Shown here: piece by piece, positions 4,842-32,209 of the stretch
Layout: each line of letters opens with the position of its first letter
Position numbering within the stretch: the stretch's first letter is position 1
Source: Actinomycetota bacterium
GTDB lineage: Bacteria > Actinomycetota > Coriobacteriia > Anaerosomatales > JAUXNU01
DNA: 32,209 nt
NCBI GenBank assembly: GCA_030682655.1
Contig: JAUXNU010000062.1
Location: 1-32,209, forward strand
Direction: 5' to 3'
The notes under the pieces: generated by a model
Database searches by the model: none
The model's input: the letters and a program-made list of their open reading frames with translations, nothing else
Told to the model about the DNA's origin: nothing
Position numbers and translations under genes: made by a program

Positions 4842-6209
4842 ATGGGAAGCGACAAGACGAGGTTCGGGCTTGATGAGACCAGGATTCCCGAGGCCTGGTA
4901 CAATATCATCCCCGATCTCAAGAACCCACCGGCGCCGCCGAAGGTGGTCACGCCTGACGGCACGGAGCTCGGACCGGACCAGATCGGCGAGGTCATGGCT
5001 TCGCTGTTCCCGATGGAGTGCCTCAAGCAGGAGATGTCCCCGGACCGCTGGATCGACATCCCGGGTGCGGTCATCGACGTGTACAAGACGTATCGTCCGT
5101 CGCCGATGCTGCGCGCCCGTCAGCTCGAGAAGGACCTCGGCCTGCCCGCAGGCGTCAAGATCTTCTACAAGTACGAGGGCGTGAGCCCCGCCGGCTCTCA
5201 CAAGCCCAACACAGCCATCCCGCAGGCGTATTACAACAAGCAGGAAGGCATCACCAAGATCTCGACCGAGACGGGTGCGGGCCAGTGGGGCAGCGCGCTG
5301 TCTATCGCCGGCGCGCTCTACGGCATCGACGTCGAGGTCTTCATGGTCAAGGTCAGCTACGAGCAGAAGCCCTACCGCCGCATCCTCATGGAGACCTACG
5401 GCGCGACCGTTCACTCCTCGCCGACCAACCTCACCGACGCCGGTCGCCACGTGCTGTCGATGGATCCGGACTCGACCGGTTCGCTCGGTATCGCGATCTC
5501 CGAGGCCGTCGAGGTCGCAGCGAAGAATCCCGACACGCACTACTCGCTCGGCTCGGTGCTGAACCACGTATGTCTGCACCAGACGATCATCGGCCAGGAG
5601 GCTATCGAGCAGATGGCACTTGCCGAAGAGGAGCCCGATGTCGTCATCGGGTGCGTCGGTGGCGGTAGCAACTTCGCCGGAATCGCATTCCCGTACTACC
5701 ACCGCAAGCTTGAGGGCAAGAGCAACGCACGCCTGCTCGCGGTCGAGCCCAAGGCGTGTCCGACACTCACCGCCGGTGAGTACCGATACGACCTGGGGGA
5801 CGAGGCCGGCATGACCCCGCAGATGCTGATGTACACGCTCGGACATGATTTCGTCCCGGCCGGTATCCATGCCGGTGGCCTTCGCTATCACGGCGACTCG
5901 CCGCTCGTCTCGCAGCTTGTCCACGAAGGCGAAGTAGAGGCCGTCGCCGTTGACCAGACCAAGTGCTTCGATGCCGCCGTCCAGTTCGCGCGCGCCGAGG
6001 GTATCCTGCCCGCACCGGAGTCGGCCCACGCGATCCTTGCCGCCATTAACGAAGCCAAGGCTGCCCAGGCGGCGGGCGAGGACAAGACGGTGCTCTTCAA
6101 CCTCTCCGGTCACGGCCACTTCGACCTGTCGGCGTACGAGGCATACAACGCCGGCGAGCTCGTCGATTACGACTTCGCCGCCGGTTCGACGTTGTGCGAA
6201 CCTGAGTAG
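4842..6209 (+). CDS. trpB2: TrpB2-type tryptophan synthase beta chain
   Basis: A PLP enzyme of the TrpB-like (TrpB2) family, 455 residues, longer than ordinary TrpB. The PLP lysine is Lys121 in GVSPAGSHKPNTA, where ordinary TrpB has GAHKINN. Other features are ETGAGQWGSAL, the phosphate-binding CVGGGSNFAG and the C-terminal NLSGHGHFDL. Members of the family make tryptophan from indole and serine and are thought to act without TrpA or as indole salvage enzymes. ATG 4842 was chosen over ATG 4815 because GGAGG lies 5 bases before it. It sits within the trp operon together with a standard trpB, so it is presumably under the same T-box control. Confidence 0.92.
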   Translation: MGSDKTRFGLDETRIPEAWYNIIPDLKNPPAPPKVVTPDGTELGPDQIGEVMASLFPMECLKQEMSPDRWIDIPGAVIDVYKTYRPSPMLRARQLEKDLGLPAGVKIFYKYEGVSPAGSHKPNTAIPQAYYNKQEGITKISTETGAGQWGSALSIAGALYGIDVEVFMVKVSYEQKPYRRILMETYGATVHSSPTNLTDAGRHVLSMDPDSTGSLGIAISEAVEVAAKNPDTHYSLGSVLNHVCLHQTIIGQEAIEQMALAEEEPDVVIGCVGGGSNFAGIAFPYYHRKLEGKSNARLLAVEPKACPTLTAGEYRYDLGDEAGMTPQMLMYTLGHDFVPAGIHAGGLRYHGDSPLVSQLVHEGEVEAVAVDQTKCFDAAVQFARAEGILPAPESAHAILAAINEAKAAQAAGEDKTVLFNLSGHGHFDLSAYEAYNAGELVDYDFAAGSTLCEPE

Positions 6210-29446: not shown

Positions 29447-29529
29447 AGCTAACCAGCGGATCGAGCGGACGGCGTAAGGTCGTCTCGGATGAGAGCGCAC
29501 GTCCGCCGCTCATCCGCAATGCGTTCGGC
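29447..29529 (+). other. attC site of cassette A
   Basis: Outer boxes AGCTAAC (29447-29453) and GTTCGGC (29523-29529). Inner stem: GCGGAT (29456-29461) pairs with ATCCGC (29512-29517), C29462 is unpaired, and GAGCG (29463-29467) pairs with CGCTC (29507-29511). The loop is about 39 bases. The boxes depart from the strict RYYYAAC/GTTRRRY consensus outside AAC/GTT. Confidence 0.75.
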
Positions 29530-30103
29530 AGACGGATCACTCTCCGCGAAGACCATGGATATGGTGGGTGACCTGCGAGCCTCAGTCTCCGGACTCCCCC
29601 TCGGCGCACGGTCTGACGCATGGAGCGGATCGCGCCTCGATACGTCCGCTCTTCGCAGACGCGGTCGGCGCGGGCTTTCCGGCGGCCGGGGATCGCCGGA
29701 CACGGCGGCGGGGAGAGCGCGAGCGGCACGGAGCGGACAGTCCTCGCACACGCTGGCGCGTCCACCTGGGACCAAGGTCGTCCTCCTGTGCACCGCTCTC
29801 GCCGCATCCGGATCCACACATCCCGTGCGCGCATGCTCTCGCCGGACCTGCGAGGTCCGATCCCCCGACTCTCCTTCGGCGCATGGTTTCACACATGGGC
29901 GGTCGGGAGGGCGGGGAGTCGATCTCCGCACAGCCGTGGTGGACGAAGGCTCCTTGGCGATCGAGACCCGCGAGACACGGCAGCGAGGCGTGCGCATTGC
30001 GGGAGCGGAGTGGTCGGCCCTGTGATCCCGGAGCGCATCGACCTGGGGGCAAGATCGTCTCTTGGTGCATCGCTCTGGACGGCTACCGCCGTCCTTCCCG
30101 CTC
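29530..30103 (+). repeat. Cassette B: imperfect tandem repeat of unknown content
   Basis: Two diverged units, starting about 29570 and 29845 (spacing about 275), share the opening GACCTGCGAG, the segment around TCGGCGCA, and a closing segment around CACCTGGGACCAAGGTCGTC (29762) versus 30040. The first unit is also repeated at the start of cassette E (32072-32209), where about 80% of bases match. All open frames here are Arg/Pro/Ser-rich and lack clear ribosome sites, so I call no gene. However, around 29580-29625, 29855-29900 and 32128-32170 the copies differ mostly in every third base: the reverse strand reads PCAEGESGD in all three and the forward strand SPDSPSA in all three. This hints at a past or present short coding region. 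Confidence 0.6.
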
Positions 30104-30204
30104 GCCGAACCAGCGCGTCAACCTGACAAACCTCGGCGATGGAGCTACGCTTCTTACGAGGCCTCGTCGGCCTCGGTCTGCAGGTTACGCGCACTACGTT
30201 AGAT
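30104..30204 (+). other. attC site of cassette B
   Basis: Outer boxes GCCGAAC (30104-30110) and GTTAGAT (30198-30204). Inner stem: GCGCGT (30113-30118) with ACGCGC (30187-30192), unpaired C30119, then AACCTG (30120-30125) with CAGGTT (30181-30186). The spacers CA and ACTAC next to the outer boxes are unpaired. The central region is 55 bases. Confidence 0.85.
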
Positions 30205-30257: not shown

Positions 30258-30283
30258 GTCTTCGGGTCTACGAGGTGGTCATC

Positions 30284-30505
30284 ATGACGGTCGACGAGAT
30301 CATGCGAGAAGCAATGACGCTCGACGCTGAGACGCGCGCTTCCATCGCTCATGAATTGCTGTCCAGCCTTGAGTCTCTGTCAGAGAGCGAGGTCGAGCGT
30401 CTCTGGATTGCTGAGGCCAGGCGCCGCAGCGCTGATGTGAAGGCCGGACGGGCGCAGACTTTCCCGGCGAACGAGTCGCTGACCCGCGCACGCGCCAATC
30501 GGTAG
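30284..30505 (+). CDS. Antitoxin of the addiction-module family (PF09720/TIGR02574-like)
   Basis: A 73-residue acidic/helical antitoxin. ATG 30284 follows GAGGTGGT; GTG 30275 is an alternative. The sequence MTVDEIMREAMTLDAETRASIAHELLSSLE...EVERLWIAEARRRSADVKAGRAQTF matches the small antitoxins whose C-terminal half wraps a RelE/ParE toxin. The toxin gene starts 5 bases after its stop. The pair is the whole coding content of cassette C. Toxin-antitoxin cassettes are frequent in large chromosomal integrons, where they are thought to resist loss of the array. Confidence 0.88.
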   Translation: MTVDEIMREAMTLDAETRASIAHELLSSLESLSESEVERLWIAEARRRSADVKAGRAQTFPANESLTRARANR

Positions 30506-30510
30506 ACTCC

Positions 30511-30807
30511 GTGATTCTCAACATCCACGAGGACGCAGACCGCGAGCTCAATGACGCAGCGGACTACTACGACGCGGAAAGCCTCGGACTCGGCACAGCG
30601 TTCCTCGATCAACTCGATGACGGGTATCAGCGAATCCTAGAGAATCCGCATGCGGCGGCGGAGATCGACCCCGATATCAGGAAGCTCGTCCTCGCGAAGT
30701 TCCCCTACAACCTGATCTACGAGATCGATGGTGATGTCGTCTTGATTCTCGCCGTTGCGCACCAGAGACGCAGGCCCCATTACTGGCGTGAACGCCGGGC
30801 GGGATGA
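30511..30807 (+). CDS. RelE/ParE-family toxin
   Basis: A 98-residue toxin. It starts at GTG 30511, 5 bases after the antitoxin stop and with no separate ribosome site, so it is probably translated by coupling. The fold pattern is typical: an N-terminal strand and helices (ILNIHEDADRELNDAADYYDAESLGLGTAFLDQLDDGYQRILENP), then beta strands RKLVLAKFPYNLIYEIDGDVVLILAVAHQRRRPHYWRER, with the conserved C-terminal 'AVAHxxRxPxYW'. Family members either cleave mRNA on the ribosome or poison gyrase; which applies here cannot be told. The stop codon abuts the attC site directly. Confidence 0.9.
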   Translation: MILNIHEDADRELNDAADYYDAESLGLGTAFLDQLDDGYQRILENPHAAAEIDPDIRKLVLAKFPYNLIYEIDGDVVLILAVAHQRRRPHYWRERRAG

Positions 30808-31005: not shown

Positions 31006-31764
31006 CTACTGAGCGATGAAGCCGCCGTCTACGGGCATGTTGATGCCAGTCACGAATGAGGCGTCGTCCGTGCACAGCCATACGACCGCGGCGGCGACTT
31101 CCTCGGGCTTGCCGAGGCGGCCGACCGGCTCCGTTGCCGTGAAGGCCTTGATCGCCTCGGGATCGCCGCCAGTGAACCGGTCGATCATCGGGGTCTGGAT
31201 GACGCCCGGGCACACCGAGTTCACGCGGATGTTCGCCGTGGCGTAGTCCAGCGCGATCTGCTTGGTGAGGCCGTTGACGCCGTGCTTGGAAGCCGTGTAC
31301 GCGGGGATCCCCGCGAAGCCGACGAGGCCCGCGACCGAGGCCGTGTTCACGATGACGCCGCCGCCCTGCTTCAGGAACTGGGCGATCTCAGCCTTGCAAC
31401 AGAGAAACACGCCGGTTAGGTTGATCGCGATGGTGCGGTCCCAGTTCTCCTCGGTGCAGTCGCCGCAGGGTCCCAGTACGCCCTCGATGCCGGCGTTGTT
31501 GTGGGCACAGTCGAGCTTCCCGTACACCTCGACCGCCTTGGCGATCAGCGCGCTCACGTCGGCCGCCTTGGAGACGTCCGCCCGGACGAAGACGGCCTCG
31601 CCACCGGCCTCCTTGATCATGCTCACGGTCTCCTCGCCCGCATCGACCGTGACGTCCGAAACCACGACCTTCGCTCCTGCTCTCGCGAACGCCAGAGCGC
31701 TCTGGCGACCGATCCCTGACGCCGCGCCGGTCACGAGAGCGACCTTGTTGTCTAGTGCACCCAT
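31006..31764 (-). CDS. Short-chain dehydrogenase/reductase (cassette D)
   Basis: A 252-residue classical SDR. ATG 31764 has GGAAGGAG 5 bases upstream. It shows the cofactor loop TGAASGIG (residues 12-19), NNAG, the catalytic Ser in NTASVAG, YTASK (Tyr-x-x-x-Lys), the CPGVIQTPM segment and a C-terminal DGGFIAQ. The closest general resemblance is to oxidoreductases annotated as glucose or 3-oxoacyl dehydrogenase-like; the substrate is unknown. Unlike most cassette genes it runs against the array direction, and it has its own promoter-like region. It is the only complete metabolic gene in the array. Confidence 0.93.
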   Translation of the reverse strand: MGALDNKVALVTGAASGIGRQSALAFARAGAKVVVSDVTVDAGEETVSMIKEAGGEAVFVRADVSKAADVSALIAKAVEVYGKLDCAHNNAGIEGVLGPCGDCTEENWDRTIAINLTGVFLCCKAEIAQFLKQGGGVIVNTASVAGLVGFAGIPAYTASKHGVNGLTKQIALDYATANIRVNSVCPGVIQTPMIDRFTGGDPEAIKAFTATEPVGRLGKPEEVAAAVVWLCTDDASFVTGINMPVDGGFIAQ

Positions 31765-31813
31765 GTCTACTCCTTCCTTCGTTGCCCTTCGGGCAACCAC
31801 TTGGGAAACACGG

Positions 31814-31860
31814 TGTATACCCTGGGATGAGCGTCGGCAAACCCGGCGCTCATCCCAGGG
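31814..31860 (-). promoter_or_regulatory. Promoter with palindromic operator for the cassette dehydrogenase
   Basis: A perfect 14-bp inverted repeat, CCCTGGGATGAGCG (31820-31833) with its complement at 31847-31860, has 13 bases between its arms. On the reverse strand TTGCCG (31835-31840) and TATACA (31814-31819) could be -35 and -10, with a short 15-base spacer holding one arm. It may be a repressor site or simply a hairpin. A smaller GTTGCCC/GGGCAAC hairpin lies nearer the ribosome site. Confidence 0.4.
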
Positions 31861-31984
31861 CTTGCCGACCCAGCCGAAGCCGCCGTCGCAGGTGACGCCA
31901 ACAGACTGGGCGGACTCGCCCCCCATACCGCATGACGGGTTGAACGTCCCGGGAGCGCATTGGGCAGGCCGGTCACTGGACCTC

Positions 31985-32077
31985 GCCGAACAACCGCATC
32001 GAGCAGACTGGGCGCCCCCGAGGTACTCTCGATGGGAAGCCGCGTGGAGCGCCCAGCAGCTCATGCGGACGTTCGGC
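31985..32077 (+). other. attC site of cassette D
   Basis: Outer boxes GCCGAAC (31985-31991) and GTTCGGC (32071-32077) are fully complementary. Inner stem: CCGCAT (31994-31999) with ATGCGG (32063-32068), unpaired C32000, then GAGC (32001-32004) with GCTC (32059-32062), extended by CTGGGCGC (32008-32015) with GCGCCCAG (32049-32056). The loop is 33 bases. Confidence 0.85.
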
Positions 32078-32209
32078 TGACGGGCTACTCTCCGTGAAGA
32101 CCATGACTATGGGGGGTGACCTGTGAGCCCAGGTCTCCGGATTCCCCTTCGGCGCAAGGTCTGACGTATGGAGCCGGTCGCGCCTTGAAGCATCCCCTCG
32201 GCGCGGGCG
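32078..32209 (+). repeat. Start of cassette E, second copy of the cassette B sequence
   Basis: From its attC junction onward this follows the first part of cassette B (29523 onward) with roughly four of five bases identical and almost no gaps, then leaves the window. No complete gene can be seen. On the reverse strand the frame holding PCAEGESGD continues as LGSQVTPHSHGLHGE and stops near 32096. In cassette B the same frame is broken by a TGA right after GESGD but has a stop at the equivalent end position. Confidence 0.7.

Follow-up and report, generated by a model that had tools for sequence, protein, structure and literature searches.

Integron cassettes without an open reading frame (ORF) are a known kind (PMC8876359). 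For ORF-less cassettes of Treponema promoter activity was demonstrated (PMC6557892), and most of the gene-less Vibrio cassettes that were tested also had promoter activity (PMC11014356). The Vibrio cassettes were selected as gene-less by the rule that they contain no ORF of more than 70 codons, and in-silico prediction failed to find their promoters (PMC11014356). As far as it is described in two papers that cite it (PMC6557892, PMC8876359), Xanthomonas campestris has a non-coding integron cassette that encodes an sRNA. Few bacteria have so far been used for tests of gene-less cassettes.

The DNA analysed here, called the window, has a length of 32,209 nt and is the whole of one contig (C62) of a 2.94 Mb genome assembly with 221 contigs. 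From about position 29447 rightwards it is occupied by an integron cassette array. One cassette of this array, cassette B, is probably a non-coding integron cassette (estimated probability about 0.75), lineage-restricted, multi-copy and without an ORF, and it most likely belongs to the kind that is already known from other integrons. Its parts and its surroundings are listed below; related copies are designated E, F and G, and the repeat units within a copy are numbered (B1, B2 etc.).

29447-29529, plus strand: attC of the preceding cassette A, with the core site GTTCGGC at 29523-29529
29523-30198, plus strand: cassette B from core to core, about 675 nt, without a recognisable gene
29550-29575, plus strand: start segment AAGACCATGnnTATGGkGGGwGACCTG, from the alignment of B1, E1, F1 and G1, present in four of four copies
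29570-29844, plus strand: unit 1 of cassette B, direct repeat with a spacing of 275, also the first unit in E, F and G
29845-30104, plus strand: unit 2 of cassette B, with an identity of 60-67% to unit 1 and of 79% to unit 2 of copy E
29585-29623, strand not assigned: phase-biased stretch, SPDSPSAHGLTHG in the forward and PCAEGESGD in the reverse direction
30077-30094, plus strand: perfect 7-bp inverted repeat GGACGGC-TACC-GCCGTCC, just 5' of the attC, the same in B and E
30105-30204, plus strand: attC of cassette B (core GTTAGAT at 30198); its identity to that of copy E is about 95%
30275-30807, plus strand: cassette C, toxin-antitoxin, directly downstream of B
30275-30505, plus strand: antitoxin of cassette C (PF09720, Pfam E-value 8e-10)
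30511-30807, plus strand: ParE toxin of cassette C (PF05016, Pfam E-value 2.5e-10)
32071-32209, plus strand: start of copy E, which continues in contig C107 (6535-5855, minus strand)

The attC of cassette A forms the left boundary of cassette B, which has GTTCGGC at 29523 as its left and GTTAGAT at 30198 as its right core and carries its own attC at the 3' end. A preliminary description of this DNA had reported a repeat-containing cassette at 29530-30103; the repeat stretch is real, but the cassette proper is slightly larger. The two diverged 275-base units of that description were confirmed as a direct repeat with starts at 29570 and 29845 (B1 versus B2: 67% identity over 236 nt, E-value 5e-6; B versus E unit 2: 68.5% over 235 nt, E-value 5e-13). 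The start segment contains a small inverted repeat, ACCAT-N4-ATGGT, one arm base of which differs in E.

A further copy had been proposed at the beginning of cassette E. This copy starts with the core site at 32071. Since the terminal 141 nt of the window overlap exactly with the start of contig C107 in reversed orientation, copy E could be read in its entirety. Two more copies were found, F (C107 192-1) and G (C26 3503-3716), both of which are cut by contig ends. The genome thus contains at least four related, diverged cassettes (B, E, F and G), more than the "at least twice" of the preliminary description, and as contigs end inside repeats this count is a lower bound and more copies may exist. 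The identity of B and E is 80-82%; their match extends from 29522 to 30203, with a core site as its limit on either side. Including both cores they have lengths of 682 nt (B) and 680 nt (E), and their alignment contains 72 transitions, 51 transversions and two single-base gaps. A chance repeat was ruled out by E-values of 5e-6 within B and 0.0 for B versus E. The first and the second units are each more similar between the copies (B1/E1 77%, B2/E2 79%) than the two units are within a copy (B1/B2 60%, E1/E2 63%), and therefore the internal duplication predates the separation of B and E.

Fifteen attC sites of the window and of contigs C107 and C26 could be aligned and have common AAC...TC...GTT features, including an extrahelical C. 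Six sites were folded as single-stranded DNA of the bottom strand. The attC sites of cassettes A and B formed hairpins with an extrahelical base (z -2.67 and -2.39, respectively), and the z values of the remaining four sites ranged from -0.94 to -6.00. With its own attC, a GTT core and an exchange exactly between core sites, B is an integron gene cassette, and the earlier proposal that it had been duplicated within the array agrees with the attC sites that flank it and with its copies. Upstream of B and E are cassettes A (weak zinc-ribbon match) and D (short-chain dehydrogenase), which are unrelated; downstream are cassettes C and T1, both of them toxin-antitoxin modules, which are protein-related, whereas their DNA matches over only 47 nt (74%). 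Because the flanking cassettes differ, a segmental duplication of a larger block was ruled out, and together with the end of the match at the cores this argues that the unit shared by B and E moved as a cassette.

An integron integrase above the TIGR02249 cut-off was not found in the 221 contigs, and thus a complete integron with an associated IntI was not recovered in this assembly. The share of genomes with an IntI above this cut-off is high in the order (46 of 69). The assembly may have a gap where this gene is situated; alternatively, the cassettes may form an integrase-less cluster. As integrase-less arrays are known, the missing IntI limits the term "complete integron", not the term "cassette".

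The body of cassette B was characterized with several coding tests. Its GC content by codon phase was 0.70/0.69/0.69, a spread of 0.01, and that of E had a spread of 0.03; both were like shuffled sequences, while the spread between codon positions was 0.25-0.41 in the genes of cassettes A, C and D. Codon-usage scores were around zero or below in all six frames of the body and were higher in the flanking genes. The B/E substitutions were evenly distributed over the three codon phases of the whole body (41/37/39), and 1-nt indels at 29671 and 29997 shift the reading frames. Pairwise synonymous tests (six frames, ten blocks) had a lowest P of 0.002, and no frame was convincingly consistent across the blocks. 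No sustained codon phase was present in the best conserved B/E islands (for example about 29935-29965, and about 75 nt into the attC), and Pfam gave no match, including no toxin or antitoxin domain, for four candidate frames of the B body. The longest open frames have 212 codons in B (plus strand) and 223 codons in E (minus strand) and thus lie on opposite strands. In shuffled sequences of the same composition the longest frame had 148 +/- 35 codons (P 0.05 for B and 0.01 for E). Therefore, the 70-codon rule (PMC11014356), under which neither B nor E would pass as gene-less, is of little use at this GC content. Apart from a local exception of 30-39 nt, cassette B contains no recognisable protein-coding gene.

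This exception is the stretch at 29585-29623. In the four first units (columns 63-92, window 29585-29614) eight of eight changes fell into one codon phase (scan P 0.0004), and in all six units (columns 63-101) this was the case for 14 of 20 changes (scan P 0.014); the scan P was obtained with a permutation test over all windows and phases. Eleven residues (TCE, SP, S, SA, G, T and G) are invariant in all six units. The preliminary description had reported that differences fall mostly at one base in three in the best conserved part, which applies to this stretch but not to the whole body. The two peptides that it had described as kept, PCAEGESGD with only synonymous changes on the reverse strand and SPDSPSA on the forward strand, are each present in five of the six units, while E2 reads PCAETEFGD and SPNSVSA. 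The local phase bias is real yet unexplained; it could represent a micro-peptide or a remnant of former coding, and it argues for some coding history.

The short protein gene that had been suggested earlier would be in accordance only with the phase bias of about 10-13 codons, with a peptide of about 24-40 codons from the GTG at 29568 (M-TCEPQSPDSPSAHGLTHG...), or a reverse frame sharing the wobble bases, that is or was translated, and an untranslated rest. The frame is, however, not sustained. Copy F has no ATG, GTG or TTG in the forward frame of the stretch, the forward frame of E has a stop after 39 codons, that of B is open for 239 codons and has an unrelated tail, and the codon positions do not differ in GC in this stretch either. 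In addition, a peptide/unit profile search in other genomes revealed only weak matches, and the best one in the 69 genomes of the order (E-value 0.003) crosses a stop codon and is not a convincing homologue. A translated short peptide is thus improbable, and slightly less probable still is a reading in which a conserved micro-peptide (TCEPxSPDSPSAHGLTHG..., about 24-40 residues), of a family without known relatives, is encoded by the cassette and was spread with it as a multi-copy integron cassette.

Alternatively, the cassette could be decayed, i.e., formerly coding with two repeats of about 91 codons and now a pseudogene that is carried along in the array. The local codon-phase remnant would be compatible with this history, and in E one and the same frame, interrupted by a single stop, comprises the motif at the end of unit 1 (KVVRLCTAL) and the whole unit 2 (from SPNSVSAHG to KVVRLCIAL). 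Nevertheless, coding-like composition is absent in all frames, the best conserved islands have no sustained codon phase, and an intact relative was not found in any genome searched. Decay is the main rival of the ORF-less reading, but it is rather unlikely.

The preliminary description had also considered a structured RNA, and a structured non-coding RNA would have a precedent in the sRNA cassette of Xanthomonas. The conserved islands without a shared frame speak for such an RNA, and the perfect hairpin GGACGGC-TACC-GCCGTCC is conserved in B and E; this exact pattern occurs genome-wide only in these two copies, although a 7-bp hairpin in 680 GC-rich bases is not unusual by itself. The folding energy of the body was the same as that of shuffled sequences on both strands (z -0.60 and -0.55), and Rfam had no match in cassette B. 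Compensatory changes were found for four of 173 pairs in the B/E alignment, and two of them were merely G-U swaps; as only two full copies could be aligned, the power to detect covariation was low. Folding or covariation beyond chance was thus not observed for the two full copies, and a structured RNA is improbable. A tRNA or tmRNA remnant was also rejected, as ARAGORN found none in the contigs that carry E, F and G. Neither of the two readings, gene or RNA, could be established for the entire body: the combination that had been named beforehand as speaking against both, evenly spread substitutions and no covariation, is what the body exhibits, and only the local pattern survived the scan-corrected test.

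Relatives of the body were not found in the 69 genomes of the order, in samples from the class (398 genomes) and the phylum (396 genomes), in a pattern scan of a genome collection, or in viral contigs, phages and plasmids; the public collections searched may omit records of this genome or of near ones. Two hits in the class (L068, L069) and one in the phylum (L169) were short, GC-rich and not cassette-like and were treated as chance; the phylum hit is situated inside an open frame of 743 codons. As far as searched, the cassette family is confined to this genome.

Compared with the described systems, the ORF-less cassette B resembles those of Treponema (oral metagenome) and of Vibrio superintegrons (PMC6557892, PMC11014356) in that it has a classical attC and no recognisable gene and is situated in an array rich in toxin-antitoxin cassettes. 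In contrast to these, it belongs to a high-GC genome, has about 675 nt, occurs there at least four times in diverged form and contains an older internal tandem duplication. With the sRNA cassette of Xanthomonas campestris, as it is cited, it shares a non-coding body; a signal for a structured or discrete RNA was not observed here. It shares the array and the attC type with toxin-antitoxin cassettes, but has no toxin or antitoxin domain in four frames (Pfam).

The history of the ORF-less cassette B might have started with an ancestral cassette that underwent the internal 275-nt tandem duplication before B and E split. Thereafter it would have been copied or re-captured as a unit via recombination at attC by the integron integrase. 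By analogy to the Treponema and Vibrio cassettes it could act in cis on adjacent cassettes, as a promoter or as other regulatory DNA. A match to a sigma-70-like promoter was not found in the cassette, a difference to these systems, and a promoter role is putative; a cis-regulatory effect on the neighbours can be proposed only tentatively. As a single genome holds at least four diverged copies and its order is mostly IntI-positive, this family would lend itself to a comparative test of the nature of such cassettes: regulatory part, tiny gene or dead freight.

A toxin-antitoxin cassette of the PF09720 type is situated directly 3' of both B and E; with two cases this proves nothing. The other cassettes on the joined contigs represent typical cargo, i.e., toxin-antitoxin pairs, PIN/MazE and an Mrr endonuclease. 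In L007 a cassette with an Mrr-type restriction endonuclease domain (PF04471; 1126-1953, minus strand) lies amid toxin-antitoxin cassettes and is possibly defence cargo. The short-chain dehydrogenase gene of cassette D (31009-31764, minus strand) opposes the direction of the array and thus would need its own promoter. Between this gene and the attC of cassette D a strong inverted repeat, CCTGGGATGAGCG...CGCTCATCCCAGG, was observed at 31810-31870; the only Rfam hit, a weak, sub-threshold match of this hairpin to MIR531, is surely due to chance. Contig C76 contains a gene for an IS110-family transposase (PF01548, E-value 3.6e-14; 4948-6022, minus strand) directly before an attC site, and a repeat of about 140 nt occurs at the two ends of this contig. 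This resembles an IS110/IS1111-type element situated in the array; its transposase may be frame-broken.
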